From an uncultured Lachnospiraceae bacterium (GTDB lineage Bacteria > Bacillota > Clostridia > Lachnospirales > Lachnospiraceae), in NCBI GenBank assembly GCA_947626395.1, contig CANQRU010000013.1, positions 1 through 64,000 on the forward strand: a stretch of DNA of 64,000 nt, in the 5' to 3' direction. The notes beneath the pieces were generated by a model. That model was given only the letters and a program-made list of their open reading frames with translations. It was not told the origin of the DNA and did no database searches. Below, one piece after another: positions 3 through 7,690 of the stretch. Position 1 is the first letter of the stretch; each line of letters starts with the position of its first letter. Made by a program: the position numbers and the translations under genes.

Positions 3-377
3 ATCCGCCAGCAATGCGAGGCCCGCGAAGATTATTACCGGAGCGTTGGATGGATGAATGATGAGATCGCACATCTGGCTTCCGATCTGAAACAACTGGC
101 TTCTGAGAAGCAGCAGCTGACTTCTGAAAACCAACAGCTGACTTCTGAGAAGCAGCAGCTGACTTCTGAAAACCAACAGCTAACTTCTGAAAAGCAGCAG
201 CTGACTTCTGAAAACCAACAGCTGACCTCCGAGAAACAACAGCTGGCCTCCGAGAAACAACAGCTGGCCTCCGAGAAACAACAGCTGGCCTCCGAAAACC
301 AACATCTGGCTTCCGAGAATGAACGCCTGCGCCAACTTCTCGCAAATGCCGGCATCCCGGATATCGAAAAGAACTGA
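3..377 (+). CDS. C-terminal part of a probable Rpn/PD-(D/E)XK nuclease-family protein, heptad coiled coil
   Basis: The reading frame is open to the left edge, so this is the 3' end of a longer gene. The first residues in frame (IRQQCEAREDYYRSVGWM) resemble the region just after the nuclease domain in Rpn-family (recombination-promoting nuclease, putative transposase) proteins of Lachnospiraceae, where a CEAREDYYR-like stretch leads into a variable coiled-coil tail. From base 96 to 326 the protein is eleven exact heptads of the type L-(A/T)-S-E-(K/N)-Q-Q with Leu at the core position, then LRQLLANAGIPDIEKN. No catalytic residues lie in the visible part. A strong terminator follows 15 bases after the stop. 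The gene is convergent with the glycan operon to its right. The Rpn assignment is inferred from the short non-repeat part and is moderate; a generic coiled-coil protein is the alternative. Confidence 0.6.
   Translation: MRQQCEAREDYYRSVGWMNDEIAHLASDLKQLASEKQQLTSENQQLTSEKQQLTSENQQLTSEKQQLTSENQQLTSEKQQLASEKQQLASEKQQLASENQHLASENERLRQLLANAGIPDIEKN
96..326 (+). repeat. 21-bp tandem repeat encoding eleven heptads
   Basis: Eleven in-frame 21-bp units, each encoding one heptad. The middle units alternate SEK and SEN, so the effective higher-order unit is 42 bp. The last units drift to LASEKQQ and LASENQH. Synonymous differences between units are few, pointing to recent slippage or unequal recombination. 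Confidence 0.9.
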
Positions 378-475: not shown

Positions 476-1747
476 TTACCCCGCAAAGCAGCTTCTGACG
501 ATTCCAATAATGGTCTCCTGCTGCTCCACCGTCATCTTATTATCACTCGGCAGGCACAGCCCTCTTTCAAAGATATCTGCACCTACATCGGCGACCGCCC
601 CGGTATCGATATACGCATTCGACCTGGCCCTTCCGCTCCCATTCCTCGTAATGAACGGATTCATCCGATACACCGGCTGCAGGTGCATCGGCTTCCAGAT
701 CGGACGTCCCTCCGCATTGTGCGCCGCCAGCTTCTCCAGGATCTCCGTCGGGCAGCTCTTTCCCTTCTCCGGCACATACAGCGAGTCTTTTTCCCCGCGT
801 ACCTGCCGGCACATGGCTTCGCGGTCGATCACAAGGCAGCTCAGCCAGAAGTTCGGCTCCATCTCTCCCTCTATGTACGGGTTCATCTTCACCGGAAGAT
901 CCTTAAAGCCTTCCTGATATCGCATGTAGATCCCTTTTTTCTGCCGGATGTGTTCTTCCAGATACCCGAACTGCCCACGCACGATCCCCGCGATGATATT
1001 GCTCATCCGGTAGTTGTACCCCAGTTCCTCATGCTGGTACCAGGGCGCCGCCTCACGGCTCTGCGTGGACCATTTCCGGGCTTTGTCCGCCGCTTCCTTA
1101 TCGTCGGTCAGTAGCATTCCGCCGGAACTTCCGGTGATGATCTTATTGCCATTGAAAGAGATTACGTTATAGCTTCCGAAATTTCCGGTCTGGACGCCCT
1201 TATAAGTCGCGCCTAAGGATTCCGCCGCATCCTCGACCAGAAGCGCGCCGTGAGCCTTGCAGACGGTACGGATATCGTCCAGCTTCGCCGGCGTCCCATA
1301 CAGATTGGCCAGAACCACCAGCTTCGCGTCCGGATAGATCTCAAAGGCCTTTTCCAAAGCCAGGGGATCCATATTCCAGGTCTCGTATTCCGAATCGATG
1401 AATACAGCCTCGCCGCCCTCATAGGCCACCGGATTCACCGTGGCGTCGAAGGTCATGTCCGAGCAGAACACCTTACGCCCTTCCAGGCTCCCATGTCCCG
1501 GCTCCGGCTGTCCATACAGGCGCTCTCCCGCCAGTTTCACCGCCAGATGAAGAGCCGCGGTACCGCTGGACAATGCCACGGCGCTGCCGCAGCCTATGTA
1601 CTCCCTTGCCAGCTTCTCCAGTTCCGTCAGGTTCTCCCCCACGGTGCTGACCCAGTTCTTCTCGATGGCTTCTGTTACATATTTCAGTTCATCCCCGTGC
1701 ATGGTTGGGGACGAAAGCCACACCTTTTCCCTGAATGATTCCGTCAT
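476..1747 (-). CDS. DegT/DnrJ/EryC1/StrS-type PLP aminotransferase, UDP-4-keto-sugar aminotransferase (PglE-like)
   Basis: A 423-residue sugar aminotransferase expected to transfer an amino group from glutamate to a UDP-4-keto-6-deoxy-sugar, giving UDP-4-amino-4,6-dideoxy-GlcNAc, the precursor of bacillosamine-type sugars. The fold-type I pattern is present: ALSSGTAALHLA near the N-terminus, VEDAAESLGA for the cofactor-contacting Asp, and FNGNKIITGSSGGM with the Schiff-base Lys at about residue 202. I chose the ATG at 1747: AAGAGGA lies 6 bases upstream, whereas an ATG two codons earlier abuts the Shine-Dalgarno. The gene begins 11 bases after the 4,6-dehydratase stop, so substrate and product match the neighbour. 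No acetyltransferase or glycosyltransferase follows; the operon stops here, facing the Rpn-like gene. Confidence 0.85.
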   Translation of the reverse strand: MTESFREKVWLSSPTMHGDELKYVTEAIEKNWVSTVGENLTELEKLAREYIGCGSAVALSSGTAALHLAVKLAGERLYGQPEPGHGSLEGRKVFCSDMTFDATVNPVAYEGGEAVFIDSEYETWNMDPLALEKAFEIYPDAKLVVLANLYGTPAKLDDIRTVCKAHGALLVEDAAESLGATYKGVQTGNFGSYNVISFNGNKIITGSSGGMLLTDDKEAADKARKWSTQSREAAPWYQHEELGYNYRMSNIIAGIVRGQFGYLEEHIRQKKGIYMRYQEGFKDLPVKMNPYIEGEMEPNFWLSCLVIDREAMCRQVRGEKDSLYVPEKGKSCPTEILEKLAAHNAEGRPIWKPMHLQPVYRMNPFITRNGSGRARSNAYIDTGAVADVGADIFERGLCLPSDNKMTVEQQETIIGIVRSCFAG

Positions 1748-1758
1748 ATTCATTCCTC

Positions 1759-3627
1759 TTATCCCTGCGGCTGGTACGTCGGCACCATCTCTTTGACCAG
1801 TACCTTCACCTGTTCTGTATCCTGGTTCGCCACCTCATACAGGCGCGCCAGGTCCTTCTCCAGCTTCTCCGCGTCAAACTCGATCGGCCTGCCAATATGG
1901 ATCAGCTGGTTCGGCGTATCCTGCAGCCCCTCTTCTCCCATCAGCAGTTCCTCATACAGCTTCTCCCCGGGACGCAGCCCCGTGAACTCGATCGGTATAT
2001 CCACATATGGCTCATAACCGGACAGCCGGATCAGGTTCTCCGCCAGATCCAGTATCTTCACCGGTTTCCCCATATCCAGCACGAAGATCTCTCCGCCTTT
2101 CGCGTACGCCCCGGCCTGCAGCACCAGACTCACCGCCTCCGGGATCGTCATGAAATACCTTATGATATCCGGGTGCGTCACCGTCACCGGCCCGCCCGCC
2201 TCGATCTGCTTCTTGAACAGTGGAATGACAGAGCCGTTGCTTCCCAACACATTCCCGAACCTTACCGCCACGAAGTCCGTCTCAGATCGGGCATCCATCA
2301 TCTGGACGACCATCTCGCAAAGCCTCTTGCTGGCTCCCATGATGTTCGTCGGGTTCACTGCCTTATCCGTGCTGATCAGCACAAACCGTTTCGTCCCATA
2401 TTTATCCGCCGCTTTCGCGGTCTTATAGGTACCGAAGACATTGTTCTTGATCGCCTCGCACGGACTGTCCTCCATCAGCGGCACATGCTTGTGCGCCGCT
2501 GCATGATACACGATATCCGGCCTGTATTTCGCGAACACACTCTCCATCCGGTGTGTATTTCTCACCGACCCAATCAGAACTACCAGATCCAGTTCCGGAT
2601 GGCTCTCCTTCAGCTCCTGCTGGATATCGTAGGCGTTGTTCTCATACACATCAAAAATGATCAGCCGCTTAGGGTTATGTCCTGCGATCTGCCTGCAAAG
2701 CTCACTCCCGATGGATCCGCCGCCCCCGGTGACCAGTATCGTCTTCCCGCTCACATATCCGATGATCTCATCCAGATCCACACGGATCGGCTCCCGCCCC
2801 AGCAGGTCCTCGATCTGCACTTCACGCAGCTTTGACACGCTGACCTCATCATTCAGCAGCTGGTAGATCCCCGGAAGGATCTTCACCCTGCAGTCTGTCT
2901 TCTGGCAGATGTCGATGATGTCTTTCCGGTCCTGGGCCGGCGCCGCGGGCATCGCGATGTAGATCTCATCCACCCGGTACTTCTCGGCCAGCTTCGGGAT
3001 ATCGTTCCGGTTCCCTTCGATGGGCACACCGTTTAAGATCTTTCCGATCTTATTCTTATCGTCGTCCACGAAGCAGACGACCGTATCATTCACAAATGAA
3101 CTGGTATGTATTTCTTTCAGGATCACGGTACCGGAAGTGCCGGCGCCGACGATCATGATCCTCTTTCCATTTTTCCCGCGTCGGCCGGACCCGAACAGCG
3201 ATACCCAGATCCGGTAGGATAGGCGCACAGCCAGCGCCATCCCGCACAGCACCACGAAGGAGATCAAATAGTAACTCCTTGGCACCGAGAACTGCAGGAG
3301 CATCATCCCGCCGGTCTGCAGAAGCGCCGCGATACCGCATGTCCCGACGATATTGAGCGCCTCCCGCACCCCGGCGGCGCTCCACACGATGTCGTACATT
3401 TTCCGGAACAAAAAAACAGCCAGCGTACCGGTGATGTACGTTGGCAGGTACCGTATGATTACAGATTTGAATTCCGGCGGCACAGCCGCCCAGCTCAGAT
3501 CGAACCGGACGATGAGTCCCAGGAATGCGGACAGGCAGATGATCGCGGTGTCGATCAAGAGAAGTCCAATCATCTGCACCCATTTATTTTTTGGAATATG
3601 TCTTTCGATGAAACCGTTATCTTTCAT
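1759..3627 (-). CDS. Membrane-bound UDP-N-acetylglucosamine 4,6-dehydratase, CapD/EpsC/PglF family
   Basis: A 622-residue nucleoside-diphosphate-sugar epimerase/dehydratase of the long, membrane-anchored type. The N-terminal quarter holds about four hydrophobic segments (residues ~17-125). A CoA-binding-like Rossmann domain with VGAGTSGT follows, then the catalytic SDR domain starting TGGGGSIGSE at ~300. The active-site block STDKAVNPTNIMGASKR at ~419-435 has the T-D-K triad and a Met in place of the usual YxxxK Tyr, as known for PglF/WbpM-type 4,6-dehydratases. It would convert UDP-GlcNAc to the UDP-4-keto-6-deoxy sugar used by the next gene. AAGGAA lies about 10 bases before the ATG. It follows the second NusG-like gene after 27 bases. 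Confidence 0.92.
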   Translation of the reverse strand: MKDNGFIERHIPKNKWVQMIGLLLIDTAIICLSAFLGLIVRFDLSWAAVPPEFKSVIIRYLPTYITGTLAVFLFRKMYDIVWSAAGVREALNIVGTCGIAALLQTGGMMLLQFSVPRSYYLISFVVLCGMALAVRLSYRIWVSLFGSGRRGKNGKRIMIVGAGTSGTVILKEIHTSSFVNDTVVCFVDDDKNKIGKILNGVPIEGNRNDIPKLAEKYRVDEIYIAMPAAPAQDRKDIIDICQKTDCRVKILPGIYQLLNDEVSVSKLREVQIEDLLGREPIRVDLDEIIGYVSGKTILVTGGGGSIGSELCRQIAGHNPKRLIIFDVYENNAYDIQQELKESHPELDLVVLIGSVRNTHRMESVFAKYRPDIVYHAAAHKHVPLMEDSPCEAIKNNVFGTYKTAKAADKYGTKRFVLISTDKAVNPTNIMGASKRLCEMVVQMMDARSETDFVAVRFGNVLGSNGSVIPLFKKQIEAGGPVTVTHPDIIRYFMTIPEAVSLVLQAGAYAKGGEIFVLDMGKPVKILDLAENLIRLSGYEPYVDIPIEFTGLRPGEKLYEELLMGEEGLQDTPNQLIHIGRPIEFDAEKLEKDLARLYEVANQDTEQVKVLVKEMVPTYQPQG

Positions 3628-3654: not shown

Positions 3655-4224
3655 CTATCCGATCGCCCTCATTGGCTCTTCCGCTCTCACGCCGAGCCCC
3701 TCATAGATCATCCCCATATCTTCATCCAGCAGTATCCCCAGGCTGAAACTTGCATCTTCTCCCAGAAACCTGTGTTTCGCGATCGCGTAGCGCTTCTTAA
3801 ACTGATATCTCTCCACCGATCCGCCGAAGGCTTCCAGCGGTCCGGTAATCTCTGTAATTATCCCATCCGACTTCTTCACATGCGAAAGCCGCACGATATG
3901 GTCTTCCCCGGAAATCTTCTCCAGGAATTCCGCGTCCTCTTTCATTAACGGCAGCATGTTCATTTCGCTGGAGGCGGCTAGTCTCGACATGGCAGGGATC
4001 CGTTCCATCCTTCGGAAAAGCGGCTCCGTCTCCCGGCAGGTAATGAATACGCATCCGGGAAGCAGCGGTTCGATATGAAGAACATTATGCTGCTGTTTTC
4101 TCCAGATCCGTTCCTGTCCAATGGTGAAGCACTTATGGTACATGCCGGGCGGAACGGTCCGATGGATCTCACGGACCAGTTCTTCCTCGCGGCCCGTCCA
4201 GGTTTTCATCATATACCAGAGCAT
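3655..4224 (-). CDS. NusG N-terminal-domain protein without KOW (LoaP/UpxY-like)
   Basis: A 189-residue protein beginning MLWYMMKTWTGREEELV, the classic start of the NusG N-terminal (NGN) domain that binds RNA polymerase. PLLPGCVFI and ERIPAMSRL match the corresponding blocks of the neighbouring NusG-like protein. The C-terminal KOW domain seen in that paralogue (GDQVTVMSGDLAGMCG) is absent; the last ~50 residues read ILLDEDMGMIYEGLGV and stop. The start at 4224 is set by AGAGAGGAG eight bases upstream. It sits between the KOW-bearing paralogue and the dehydratase in one operon. NusG-like antiterminators of this sort (LoaP in Firmicutes, UpxY in Bacteroides) let polymerase read through long glycan or antibiotic operons. 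Loss of KOW could make this copy a competitor or partner; that is inference. Confidence 0.75.
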   Translation of the reverse strand: MLWYMMKTWTGREEELVREIHRTVPPGMYHKCFTIGQERIWRKQQHNVLHIEPLLPGCVFITCRETEPLFRRMERIPAMSRLAASSEMNMLPLMKEDAEFLEKISGEDHIVRLSHVKKSDGIITEITGPLEAFGGSVERYQFKKRYAIAKHRFLGEDASFSLGILLDEDMGMIYEGLGVRAEEPMRAIG

Positions 4225-4346
4225 ATCCGCGTCTCCTCTCTGCGTCGCCATCATTGCCGGCTTTCACATCTTCAGCTCTGCATTTCCGGCTTCTTTTGCC
4301 TTATGTTTTTCGCATTCGGCTTCCTGTCTTTTCCTGCTGCCCTTCT

Positions 4347-5126
4347 CTATTCCAGCTTCTTCACATCTCCGGCCTCGACTTCGATATCGAGCTGCTGCCC
4401 CAGGAAATGGATATTCAGTCTCACCGTGTGTTTCTTCGTCTTGCTGACGGTTCCGCACATTCCGGCGAGATCGCCGCTCATCACCGTCACCTGATCGCCG
4501 GGCAGGAATTGCTGCTGAATTTCCGGCGTCTTCTCAGGGGCGCTTGCCTGGACCTGGTAGCGCTCCGGCACCGCGATCGGCGCCTCCACCTTGCCGTAGC
4601 GTAGCTGCCTGCGGATGTCTTCCGGTAAAATGATCCCCAGCGGGATCTGTTTCTCGCTCTCTGCCAGGCTCAGCCGGATAACGGCGCTCCGCCTTCGGTA
4701 GTTATATCGAACGACCTGTTTCAGACACGATCTAAGCGGCCCCGCCGTCTGGCGGACCTGGCCGTGACCGTCGGTAGACAGATAAGACAGCCCGATCACA
4801 TGACTCTCGTTCATGATCTGCTTAAGGAACGCCGCTTCCTCCGGCTCCAGCGCAAGGAAATACAGATTATCTCCCGCCATAAGCTTCGACATGGCCGGTA
4901 CCCGTTTCAGTTCCAGATACAGCGCGTCCGGCTGCTCCGCAGTGATAAAGACATATCCCGGAAATGCTCTCGCCACATGGACGAACGCTCCCTCATGACG
5001 CCGCCAGAGCTGTTCGCAATACAATACGAAGCACTCGCCGTACAGATCCGAGGGGAGCATCTTCCGAATCATCGTCACCAGTTTCTCCTCCTCGCCGGTC
5101 ATTGTCTGAAGCACATACCAGTTCAT
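4347..5126 (-). CDS. loaP: LoaP-like NusG-family transcription antiterminator with NGN and KOW domains
   Basis: 259 residues. The NGN domain covers ~1-110 (MNWYVLQTMTGEEEKLV, ARAFPGYVFI, KRVPAMSKLM). A middle linker follows, then a KOW domain at ~206-255 (FLPGDQVTVMSGDLAGMCGTV). It is not the housekeeping NusG: the sequence is diverged, and it is the first gene of a glycan operon rather than next to secE/rplK. Specialised NusG proteins of the LoaP group act on the operon that encodes them through an RNA element in the 5' leader. The ATG at 5126 has GGAGA seven bases upstream. A leader of about 270 bases separates it from the invertible promoter segment. The gene symbol is used by family analogy. 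Confidence 0.8.
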   Translation of the reverse strand: MNWYVLQTMTGEEEKLVTMIRKMLPSDLYGECFVLYCEQLWRRHEGAFVHVARAFPGYVFITAEQPDALYLELKRVPAMSKLMAGDNLYFLALEPEEAAFLKQIMNESHVIGLSYLSTDGHGQVRQTAGPLRSCLKQVVRYNYRRRSAVIRLSLAESEKQIPLGIILPEDIRRQLRYGKVEAPIAVPERYQVQASAPEKTPEIQQQFLPGDQVTVMSGDLAGMCGTVSKTKKHTVRLNIHFLGQQLDIEVEAGDVKKLE

Positions 5127-5397
5127 ATGGTTTTCTCCATTTCCCCGGGTCGGAGAGGCTTAACTGGCATGAAAATGGCATAGCTCCGCCATCCCGGCTG
5201 ATCCCCTGGGGGATCCGGGAAGTATATGCTCCGCCATTCCGGGCCGCGCGCGGCGAACCGGACTGTGAAATGCACTGGCATTCCTGCCGCCGATATAACC
5301 CCATTCCGGGAAATGCAACCTCAGGCTCGCGATCTCCCGTCCCGGTTTTGTACAGATCCGGCCAACACTAAATACAGTGTCTGCCGGGCGTTTAGGG
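5127..5397 (-). promoter_or_regulatory. Untranslated leader of the glycan operon, possible antiterminator target
   Basis: About 270 bases with no credible gene lie between the inverted-repeat segment and the first antiterminator gene. Read as leader RNA, it contains a stem of GATCCC with GGGATC (5199-5214) and a short ACAC/GTGT hairpin near 5367-5382. It also has three related elements: CCGGRATGGCGGAGC twice (complements of 5183-5197 and 5228-5242) and a shorter CCCGGAATGGGG (complement of 5299-5310). LoaP proteins are known to need a hairpin in such a leader; which element would serve is unknown. Confidence 0.55.
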
Positions 5398-5432
5398 TCG
5401 AGTTCAACACAATATAGGATTGAGTTGAACTC
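5398..5432 (+). repeat. Left 35-bp inverted repeat of the invertible segment
   Basis: It matches the reverse complement of 5623-5657 at 34 of 35 positions (C at 5410 differs). The repeat is itself nearly palindromic: outer arms GAGTTCAAC and GTTGAACTC, the symmetry continuing through CAAT/ATTG to a short asymmetric core ATAGG. Paired protein-binding arms around a short directional core are the layout of a tyrosine-recombinase site. Confidence 0.93.
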
Positions 5433-5579
5433 AAAACGGAGGGTTGGAGCGGTGCCGGCGCAATAAAAAAGAGGATTTTTGTCTGAACAGAAAGGAATCG
5501 CTGACAAATTATCGAAAATTAATAATTTTCATTGCTTTTACTAAAGAAAAGATTAACTTTTTTCCCAAAAGAAAGGGAC

Positions 5580-5608
5580 TTGAATTATCCGGGAAAGCGT
5601 GCTATCAT
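5580..5608 (+). promoter_or_regulatory. SigmaA promoter inside the invertible segment, directed rightward (OFF)
   Basis: TTGAAT at 5580-5585, a 17-base spacer and TATCAT at 5603-5608; transcription would start near 5615. It reads away from the glycan operon. I found no comparably good promoter on the other strand within the segment or in the leader. Confidence 0.75.
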
Positions 5609-5618
5609 AATAAAGCGT

Positions 5619-5663
5619 AATCGAGTTCAACTCAATCCTATATTTTGTTGAACTCGATTTTTT
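5619..5663 (+). terminator. Terminator-like hairpin formed by the right inverted repeat
   Basis: Arms AATCGAGTTCAAC and GTTGAACTCGATT (13 bp) with a 15-base loop, followed by six T (5658-5663). It lies within the first 50 bases of the transcript from the promoter at 5580-5608. The outer flank of the left repeat has no T-run (GACCCTAAACG on the operon strand), so after inversion the same hairpin would not be followed by a U-tract. Confidence 0.65.
5623..5657 (-). repeat. Right 35-bp inverted repeat of the invertible segment
   Basis: Reverse-complement partner of 5398-5432 with one mismatch. Its outer arms extend to an 11-bp perfect match, TCGAGTTCAAC and GTTGAACTCGA. Confidence 0.93.
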
Positions 5664-5673
5664 GTATTTCCAC

Positions 5674-5704
5674 ACAGGAAGATCGTCAGCGACGCTCTTC
5701 CTGT
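5674..5704. other. Strong hairpin right of the switch
   Basis: Arms ACAGGAAGA-CGTC and GACG-TCTTCCTGT pair across the loop AGC with one internal mismatch. There is no T-run on either side, so it is not a classical terminator. It may be a transcript end-processing or blocking structure between the gerW operon and the switch. Confidence 0.5.
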
Positions 5705-5873
5705 ATTCCGGCCAACGCCGCCGTCCGATCCGTTTTCGCAGACTGGTACAATGCGGAGACTCGCCGGTCTCTTTTACATATACTATATATTTTACATATA
5801 CTATACAAATGACCGCTGCACCCGTCCAAAAGTACAGCGGCCTGTAATTTTTCCGTCATTCTGTCCTGCAGAA
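5705..5873. other. Intergenic stretch with an 18-bp direct repeat
   Basis: No gene is supported. TTTTACATATACTATA occurs at 5772-5787 and again at 5790-5805 (period 18). A hairpin with arms CCGCTG and CAGCGG follows at about 5813-5841 and is trailed by a short T-run on the + strand. Confidence 0.5.
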
Positions 5874-6014
5874 TCAACACCGGCAGAACAGATTATAACC
5901 GATCACCATCAAGGCAATAATAAACACCAGCAGCGCCAGCGTGGTCGGGATCAGTACCTTTACCGCCATGCCGACGCCGGTGCAGAACATGCAAAGTCCC
6001 CAGACACGCCGCAT
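5874..6014 (-). CDS. Small membrane protein, 46 residues
   Basis: The predicted product begins MRRVWGLCMFCTGVGMAV and continues with an uninterrupted hydrophobic segment of about 20 residues (LIPTTLALLVFIIALMVIGY), ending LFCRC. The ATG at 6014 has GGGGGA three to four bases upstream, close but usable. An in-frame ATG at 6035 has no Shine-Dalgarno. The gene lies 118 bases downstream of the gerW-type gene on the same strand and may be the last gene of that operon. I do not recognise the family. Support comes from the membrane-type composition, the RBS and the position; it is too short to be certain. Confidence 0.5.
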   Translation of the reverse strand: MRRVWGLCMFCTGVGMAVKVLIPTTLALLVFIIALMVIGYNLFCRC

Positions 6015-6132
6015 ATTTCCCCCGCAGATTTCCATCTTTTTGACGTTTCTCAGCCGCTAACTCTAACGCGGAAACGTCTATAGGACATCATATGCAAAGG
6101 CTGTCGCTTATATGACAACGGTGCCTCCAGCC

Positions 6133-6546
6133 TTATTTCCCGTCGTCCCGGGCCATCTCCTCCGCCACCTGCACGGCGTTCTCCGAGATCGGCTCGCCGA
6201 CGCTGACCTTACCGGATGTGAAACGGTTCACCAGATCGGGGATCATGTCCAGAACCTTGTTCACGGTGTTCTGGTTCTTGATGTTCACCAGGCGGGTGGA
6301 ACCGTTCTGGATCACAAGGATCGCGCTGGGACTCATTTTCGCGCTCATACCCCCGGCGCCCCGGTTCTTGGCGTTGGCGTCGAAGGCGCCCGCGGCCATA
6401 CCGCATGACACGTCCATTAACGGCAGGATGATCGCGCCGTCCACGCGCACCGCGTCGCCCACCACGGTCTTGGTGGTCACCAGTTTATCGATACCGGAAA
6501 AAAGGGCATCGATGGAAGATGTGATCTGTTTGCTGCTGTCTGCCAT
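6133..6546 (-). CDS. gerW: GerW/YtfJ-family sporulation protein
   Basis: 137 residues starting MADSSKQITSSIDALFSGID, with the conserved core KTVVGDAVRVDGAIILPLMDVSCGMAAGAF and a Gly-rich loop before LVIQNGSTRLVNIKNQ. In Bacillus, GerW (YtfJ) is a spore protein needed for germination through some receptors; clostridial spore-formers carry it beside a DUF2953 gene, as here (one base separates the two). The ATG at 6546 has GGAGGG seven bases upstream; an ATG five codons earlier overlaps that Shine-Dalgarno. The last residues (AEEMARDDGK) are charged. Its presence argues that the organism forms spores. Confidence 0.9.
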   Translation of the reverse strand: MADSSKQITSSIDALFSGIDKLVTTKTVVGDAVRVDGAIILPLMDVSCGMAAGAFDANAKNRGAGGMSAKMSPSAILVIQNGSTRLVNIKNQNTVNKVLDMIPDLVNRFTSGKVSVGEPISENAVQVAEEMARDDGK

Positions 6547-6547
6547 A

Positions 6548-7690
6548 TTATTTCCCTCCACTTTCCAGGAATTTCCTGACCTTCTTAATCATTCTCCAGA
6601 GATTTCTGTCGATCAGTACACGTACCGTCCTGACCGCCAACGCTCCCGCGCGGATTCGGCCTTTCATCTGGAGATTTCCGTCGATCACCGCGTTCTCGAA
6701 ATCAGGCGTGATCGTCAGTTCCGTACCATACAGCGCATAGAGTACACTGCACGCCGCCAGTACACTCCCCGTCGTCGCCGGGTCGTCGAATCCGAACGTA
6801 ATCTGCCCTGACGCCTTCTGCGGCAGGATATGCCGAATCATGGCCTTTGCCTGACGCCAGACCAGCCGGATCGTCTTCTGGTTCTTCGGATCTTCCAGGA
6901 AACGCTCGATCCAGCGGCGCTTCCTGTCCGCCCACTCAAGCTTCCCGCCGATCCGGTCAAAAATATTCTCGATCTTATCAATGATATCGTCGGAGGATTC
7001 TTCTGCCCCCGGCGGGTTATGTTCATTCTCATCCTGCCGCAGCTCTTCTTCCAAAGTCGGCAGCTGAGAAATATCGATGCCTTCCGTTATAGTTTCTTCG
7101 GTCTGGGAATCCGCCATATGAGCGGAATCTGCAGTTTCGGATATATTTTCCGTGACATTGTCCACGGAACTGGCAGCTTCATGTGTATCTCCCGCAGTGC
7201 CATTCGCTGTGCCTGCGGCATTGATAGTTCCGGATGTATCTCCCGCAGCGCTATCCGCGGCATCTGCCGAATCGGCAGTTCCGGATGAAACTCCCGCGGC
7301 GCCTGTCGCCCCATCATCCGTCTCCAGCGATGTTACGCTTACGATCTCATCTCCATCCGCTATATCCGCTTCGCCGTCAATTTCATCGTCCCACTCGCCG
7401 GCTTCGCCTGCCTCTTCATTTTCTTCTCCTCCCGAAGCAGAATGAAGCACAGTGAATCCGAACAGCTTCGCCGTGATATCCAGACCATTTTCATACGAAG
7501 CCAGAACAGAAACCGCGTGAAGCAGCCATGTGACCCGGACCTTCCCCGCGGGCTCTCCGTGCCAGCTTCCCTCCAGACGGTATCGGAGAGGAACCAGAAG
7601 CACCAGCAGCACGGCCGCAAGCAGCAGCCCCAGGATAACCAACAGCACAATCCCTATGATCTTAAGTATCAAAAGCAGGATATGCAGCAT
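6548..7690 (-). CDS. DUF2953-domain membrane-anchored protein with long acidic insertion
   Basis: 380 residues. A hydrophobic N-terminus of ~30 residues (LLLILKIIGIVLLVILGLLL...) gives one membrane anchor. The segment LVPLRYRLEG...WLLHAVSVLASYENG is the start of the DUF2953 region. Its C-terminal part (KAMIRHILPQ, GQITFGFDDPATTG, ITPDFENAVIDG) is intact. Between them (~residues 90-225) lies a low-complexity acidic stretch rich in Ala, Asp, Ser, Thr and Gly with imperfect repeats (SADAADSAAGD, INAAGTANGTAGD). This makes the protein much longer than the usual ~200-230 residues. It is translationally close to gerW, the B. subtilis ytfI-ytfJ arrangement. Function in sporulation is inferred from that pairing. 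GGGAGAGG precedes the ATG. Confidence 0.85.
   Translation of the reverse strand: MLHILLLILKIIGIVLLVILGLLLAAVLLVLLVPLRYRLEGSWHGEPAGKVRVTWLLHAVSVLASYENGLDITAKLFGFTVLHSASGGEENEEAGEAGEWDDEIDGEADIADGDEIVSVTSLETDDGATGAAGVSSGTADSADAADSAAGDTSGTINAAGTANGTAGDTHEAASSVDNVTENISETADSAHMADSQTEETITEGIDISQLPTLEEELRQDENEHNPPGAEESSDDIIDKIENIFDRIGGKLEWADRKRRWIERFLEDPKNQKTIRLVWRQAKAMIRHILPQKASGQITFGFDDPATTGSVLAACSVLYALYGTELTITPDFENAVIDGNLQMKGRIRAGALAVRTVRVLIDRNLWRMIKKVRKFLESGGK

Follow-up and report, generated by a model that had tools for sequence, protein, structure and literature searches.

Invertible promoters are usually drawn with an OFF state in which the promoter has merely been pointed elsewhere. The nearest precedent for the switch described here is that of cwpV in Clostridioides difficile, for which an OFF-only intrinsic terminator, made of a stem and a poly-U run, was proposed at the junction of the inverted repeat (Emerson et al. 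2009, PMC2784873). cwpV has a small, recombinase-driven inversion switch, as our locus is presumed to have, and for both a terminator is proposed at a repeat junction in the OFF orientation only. It should be pointed out that the cwpV promoter lies outside the invertible segment whereas the promoter of our locus lies inside it, so the two are not switches of the same type. The cwpV terminator silences the regulated gene itself, while the one considered here is predicted to stop transcription directed away from the regulated gene. Finally, the cwpV stem spans the junction between repeat and segment, whereas in our case the stem is the repeat itself.

Orientation-dependent termination has also been described in Escherichia coli, where fimS provides fimE with a detachable Rho-dependent terminator (Joyce and Dorman 2002; Hinde et al. 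2005; both as cited in PMC9993118). It is an invertible promoter with a terminator that depends on orientation, as is proposed for our locus. The fim terminator, however, sits on the invertible segment and acts on the recombinase mRNA rather than on the OFF transcript of the switch promoter, and it requires Rho, while our site has the features of an intrinsic terminator. Another switch of C. difficile, flg, resembles what is predicted for ours in that transcripts of the OFF orientation are preferentially terminated (PMC7446863). According to the accessible part of that report, this is the work of Rho, which acts in the mRNA leader of the regulated gene itself, and a hairpin of the site is not involved. 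A likeness of a different kind is found in Bacteroides, in which UpxY antiterminators and capsule loci are preceded by invertible promoters (PMC11892184), the same order of invertible promoter, NusG-paralogue antiterminator and polysaccharide operon as in our locus. Bacteroides belongs to another phylum and UpxY to another antiterminator family, and the sections of that paper available to us do not report a terminator built from the repeats. Our search of the open-access literature found no paper on LoaP together with an invertible switch, and, in the texts as far as they were accessible, none describing inverted repeats that serve as terminators of invertible promoters.

The putative switch between loaP and gerW

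The window, as we call the whole stretch of 64,000 nucleotides that was analysed, contains at 5398-5657 what is best explained as an invertible promoter upstream of loaP and sugar-biosynthesis genes, that is, the control region of a phase-variable, LoaP-controlled surface-polysaccharide operon. Its repeats would serve both as the DNA target of recombination and, on one side, as an intrinsic RNA terminator predicted to work in the OFF orientation only. We put the probability of this explanation as a whole at about 0.78. The features it involves are the following.

476..1753, minus strand: DegT/DnrJ/EryC1-family aminotransferase (by domain family), a surface polysaccharide gene
1759..3627, minus strand: nucleotide-sugar dehydratase (Polysacc_synt_2 / CoA_binding_3), a surface polysaccharide gene
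3655..4254, minus strand: a further NusG/LoaP-like gene in tandem, scoring below the cut-off for LoaP
4347..5126, minus strand: loaP, NusG-paralogue antiterminator (NCBIfam LoaP, 125.5 bits against a cut-off of 125)
5127..5397, minus strand: predicted leader of the ON transcript, with a structured, near-invariant block and, ending near 5176, a weak candidate for a leader terminator
5398..5432: putative recombination site on the left (loaP) side, palindromic in itself, with no T-run in its outer flank
5580..5608, plus strand: putative switch promoter TTGAAT-17-TATCAT with an extended -10, by consensus match, facing right (OFF)
5619..5659, plus strand: 13-bp RNA hairpin formed by the right site and a few bp of its flank, -17.2 kcal/mol
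5623..5657: putative right (gerW-side) recombination site, palindromic and 97% complementary to the left site
5658..5663, plus strand: T6 run, the putative U-tract that would turn the hairpin into an intrinsic terminator when the switch is OFF
6133..6561, minus strand: gerW (ytfJ), the adjacent gene, across which an OFF transcript would run in antisense if it were not terminated

The two repeats, 35 bp each and 97% complementary, are inverted and leave 190 nt between them, as in invertons, which are recognised by long inverted repeats around a segment of promoter size. The right end of the segment scores 10.0 and the other end 7.0 against the promoter consensus, scores that reflect consensus match only, and a relative, G009, has TTGAAA-17-TATCAT at the equivalent position. 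Since the promoter points away from loaP, the switch as assembled is taken to be OFF. The transcript start that the sequence-only reading had placed near 5615 is reasonable, given the promoter-like element at 5580-5608 on the plus strand.

In the ON orientation the transcript would run through the leader, whose block (ACAAAACCGGGACGGGAGATCGCGAGCCTGAGGTTGCATTTCCCGG) is near-invariant across five species. In Bacillus velezensis, LoaP recognises an RNA hairpin (PMC12691694). The block in our leader is a likely candidate for the LoaP recognition RNA, and the weak terminator candidate of the leader for an attenuator. The block is absent from the OFF RNA, and LoaP could thus presumably not antiterminate that RNA. 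Elsewhere in the window, a short open reading frame at 54-377 (plus strand) is made up, nearly throughout, of copies of a short peptide (SEKQQLTSENQQLT-like) with the appearance of a coiled coil.

The right repeat as a predicted OFF-only terminator

Because the sites are palindromic, RNA transcribed through them is expected to fold into a hairpin. On the right side, AATCGAGTTCAAC at 5619-5631 pairs with GTTGAACTCGATT at 5647-5659, and the RNA of 5616-5672 (plus strand) folds with -17.2 kcal/mol (z -6.4; none of 200 shuffled sequences was as good). The T6 at 5658-5663 gives the U-tract a tail score of 5.56. A hairpin of 13 bp followed by six U had been claimed from the letters, and indeed both the pairing and the T6 are there, but two bases were counted twice; stem and T6 overlap, and the structure is either 13 bp with four U or 11 bp with six U. 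The stem is A/T-rich, with G-C pairs at 5 of 13 positions, and is weaker than those of textbook terminators. Its loop of 15 nt is longer than the usual 3-10 nt, a range set by the models used to search for terminators and not by any strict definition; the arms of the palindrome are separated by only a few bases in two other site families, TGTCG and GTGTCGC. A stock terminator pattern scan of the window did not list the hairpin because it allows loops of 3-8 nt only. A search against Rfam gave chance hits only.

The two orientations were compared with a score of the d'Aubenton-Carafa type, the ON junction being a hybrid rebuilt in silico. Through the right repeat, the OFF transcript scores +22.5; through the left repeat, the ON transcript scores -39.7, with the tail CCCTAAACGCCC. 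The rebuilt ON hairpin is equally stable as the OFF hairpin, and it is followed by CCCTAAACG, which leaves it far below terminator grade. The U-tract, in other words, is found in the OFF orientation only. This bears out the earlier proposals that the outer flank of the left repeat lacks a T-run and that the flanks add a one-sided terminator to the switch. When the window hairpin was joined to random flanks from the window, 0 of 300 combinations scored above 0. On the plus strand from 5600 to 6600, which includes the whole of gerW, the right-repeat hairpin is the sole site scoring above 0. Taken together, the window very probably contains a one-sided terminator.

In the proposed mechanism, a T-run is present on the outside of the loaP-distal site only. 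In the OFF orientation, the transcript would form the hairpin some 5 nt after its start, meet the U-tract and end near 5664, giving an RNA of about 50 nt. In the ON orientation, the same hairpin would be followed by non-T sequence and become a harmless 5' structure, and transcription would continue via the leader into loaP. The benefit would be that no antisense or misdirected transcription arises from the idle promoter. The sequence-only reading had been more specific and assigned the hairpin the protection of the gerW operon. gerW is indeed antisense to and downstream of the OFF promoter, with no other good plus-strand stop from 5600 to 6600, and its shielding is a plausible motive, one of several possible ones. 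The open frames beyond the other switches surveyed below are apparently of mixed orientation; for this reason, the wording that the terminator avoids useless or misdirected transcription is the safer one.

Right next to the site, a hairpin at 5662-5710 (ACAGGAAGATCGTCAGCGACGCTCTTCCTGT) is a dispersed repeat, with several more copies in the genome and many in the genus. The idea that the T-run is simply a part of this repeat was rejected, as species with other sequence at that place keep the T-run.

Recurrence in relatives and the rival explanations

Six further species-level genomes from the genus (G001, G004, G009, G012, G018 and G021) have the same switch site adjoining gerW, and a T-rich run is found on the gerW side in all six, with at least five T in five of them and TTTCTT in G009. 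The sequences after the site read TCGATTTTTTG in the window and G004, TCGCTCTTTCTTG in G009, TCGTTTTTTG in G012, TCGCTTTTTCTG in G018, TCCTTTTTTAC in G021 and TCGTTTTTCC in G001. On the loaP side, the sequences, where known, are GACCCTAAACG, AGTTCCAAACG, AGACGCTAAGG and GATCCCAAGCG, none with a T-run. Beyond +15 the gerW-side flanks have 15-42% ungapped identity, which is about chance, except for the pair of window and G004 (75%). Between the window and G009, the foot of the stem beside the site is changed on both sides with the OFF pairing kept (AATC/GATT to GAGC/GCTC). The G009 OFF terminator scores +12.7, and its GAGC/GCTC bases are unpaired in ON. Where a gerW-locus contig ends within the repeat, only its T-run was counted, since the missing 5' arm makes the terminator score too low.

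A wider survey covered 48 LoaP-linked switches in 22 species-level genomes, loci that are related to one another so that the counts are not independent. A positive terminator score was OFF-only in 36, ON-only in 1, obtained for both orientations in 1 and for neither in 10. The first set of 29 switches (18 genomes) was collected upstream of loaP genes with a repeat gap of up to 1250 nt, the promoter end being chosen by consensus; 19 were OFF-only, 1 ON-only, 0 both and 9 neither, and the excess of OFF-only over ON-only has a binomial probability of 4e-5 if shared ancestry is ignored. This set left out the recombinase-carrying switches of about 1.4 kb, which are included in the second. The latter consists of 19 TGTCGYAGAGT switches, most of them 1.3-1.5 kb long, of which 17 were OFF-only, 0 ON-only, 1 both and 1 neither; since they were found with the site pattern taken from the first set, they amount to a wider sample of one site family. 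The T-runs themselves show the same asymmetry. Among the first 29, runs of at least five T within 14 nt of the site, reading outward, occur on the far side in 14 of 29 and on the loaP side in 2 of 29, while on the same far flank T-runs 15-28 nt away and A-runs at the site were each seen in 1 of 29. The pattern is specific to side, position and strand and fits a function in RNA.

Palindromic sites of three or more unrelated families (GTTCAAC.., TGTCGYAGAGT.. and GTGTCGCTTAAC..) have the asymmetry in common. In addition, four switches of the TGTCGYAGAGT family whose neighbours were not recognised as loaP (L262, L263, L277 and L282) have a T-run only away from the adjacent gene; for the genes beside two non-LoaP switches, NCBIfam and Pfam gave no family. 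In other genera the pattern is rare, with 1 OFF-only and 1 ON-only among 6 loci. The site family of the window is itself narrow, as a search of 397 genomes for the exact family added just one doubtful match. We consider it probable that this is a general dual-use design, arisen or kept in several unrelated site families of this Lachnospiraceae genus, in which the T-run stops the idle promoter and leaves the ON transcript untouched.

How else could one account for the T-run? It could be a signal in the DNA, a bend or the site of an accessory protein, that biases the direction of recombination as in fim, with the look of a terminator as a by-product. T-runs do lie at specific flanks of the sites, and 10 of the 29 first-set loci have a second one at the non-promoter inner end, an arrangement that would leave their far site symmetric in the ON orientation. 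We nevertheless consider this unlikely, because the run begins at the end of the stem on the RNA strand of the OFF promoter, neither A-runs nor runs at 15-28 nt are in excess, the stem bases beside the site co-vary in the OFF pairing, and several sites of the window family without a T-run still look like switches. The hairpin could also be nothing but the palindromic site of recombination, beside a T-run that is there by chance or local inheritance and has no function. Palindromic sites fold by default and the loci have a common ancestry; a chance T-run is, however, very hard to reconcile with the random flanks, none of which scored above 0, and with 36 OFF-only switches against a single ON-only one among 48 loci in three site families, the flanks of the first 29 being unalignable except for two short matches.

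It is just as improbable that the site mainly insulates loaP from transcription entering from the gerW side instead of stopping the OFF promoter. gerW and loaP share a strand, and at other loci T-runs that read inward do exist, but the T-run of the window reads outward, the inward hairpin has ACGC behind it and a score below 0, and for gerW itself there are weak stop candidates at 5925 and 5811. If the preferred reading, a recombination site that doubles as an OFF-only terminator, is true, it is the recombination site that actively closes the OFF state, and switches could adjoin unrelated genes without disturbing them. A T-run outside the far repeat would then be a rule by which the ON/OFF polarity of uncharacterised switches can be read from sequence, and the arrangement might lend itself to synthetic memory switches as a compact part. 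That it recurs at recombination sites of unrelated families adds to the interest.

Inversion, recombinases and exceptions

Both assembled orientations occur among the surveyed switches. Five contigs (L067 in G012, L068 in G004, L079 in G018, L071 in G021 and L080 in G001) end inside the repeat core or within 2 nt of its inner edge, as would be expected if both orientations coexist, which points indirectly to inversion; such a contig-end footprint might allow active switches to be located from assemblies alone. As for the enzyme, short tyrosine recombinases (PF00589) are encoded inside longer switches of the window family (L072, L073, L074, L069, L078 and L082), and the long TGTCG switches have tyrosine recombinases of about 400 aa inside the segment. 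The switch of the window is without an internal recombinase. A stand-alone relative, 67% identical, is found in the same genome at C2:133783; it is the best, though unproven, candidate for the enzyme on which the window switch may depend. Some relatives that carry the switch have no detectable copy.

There are exceptions to the pattern. Several sites of the window family have no T-run there and are still switch-like, and most recombinase-carrying kin of this family lack the T-run at the site. Those without a scoring terminator there are G004 C93, G008 C3 and C50, G025 C165, G018 C34 and L082; another such relative, L085, has one. In G004 C93 a separate strong terminator ends 35 nt further on, the sole such case among the recombinase-carrying relatives. 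The T-runs that read inward at the non-promoter end in 10 of the 29 first-set loci (for example L103, L186 and L192) are outside what a model of OFF termination explains; in the ON orientation the far site of these switches would be symmetric, with the order A-run, site, T-run.

Two minor observations may be added. At L007 1540-1640 and L081 (G019), the same promoter is directed toward loaP beside a single decayed repeat, apparently a switch locked in the ON state. In the recombinase-carrying L069, L074 and L082, the ON transcript would begin with an extended hairpin (GGTGATATCCA / TGGAGATTCACC in L069; changed in L074 and still pairing), and this longer 5' hairpin of some recombinase-carrying switches is a different use of the same symmetry.
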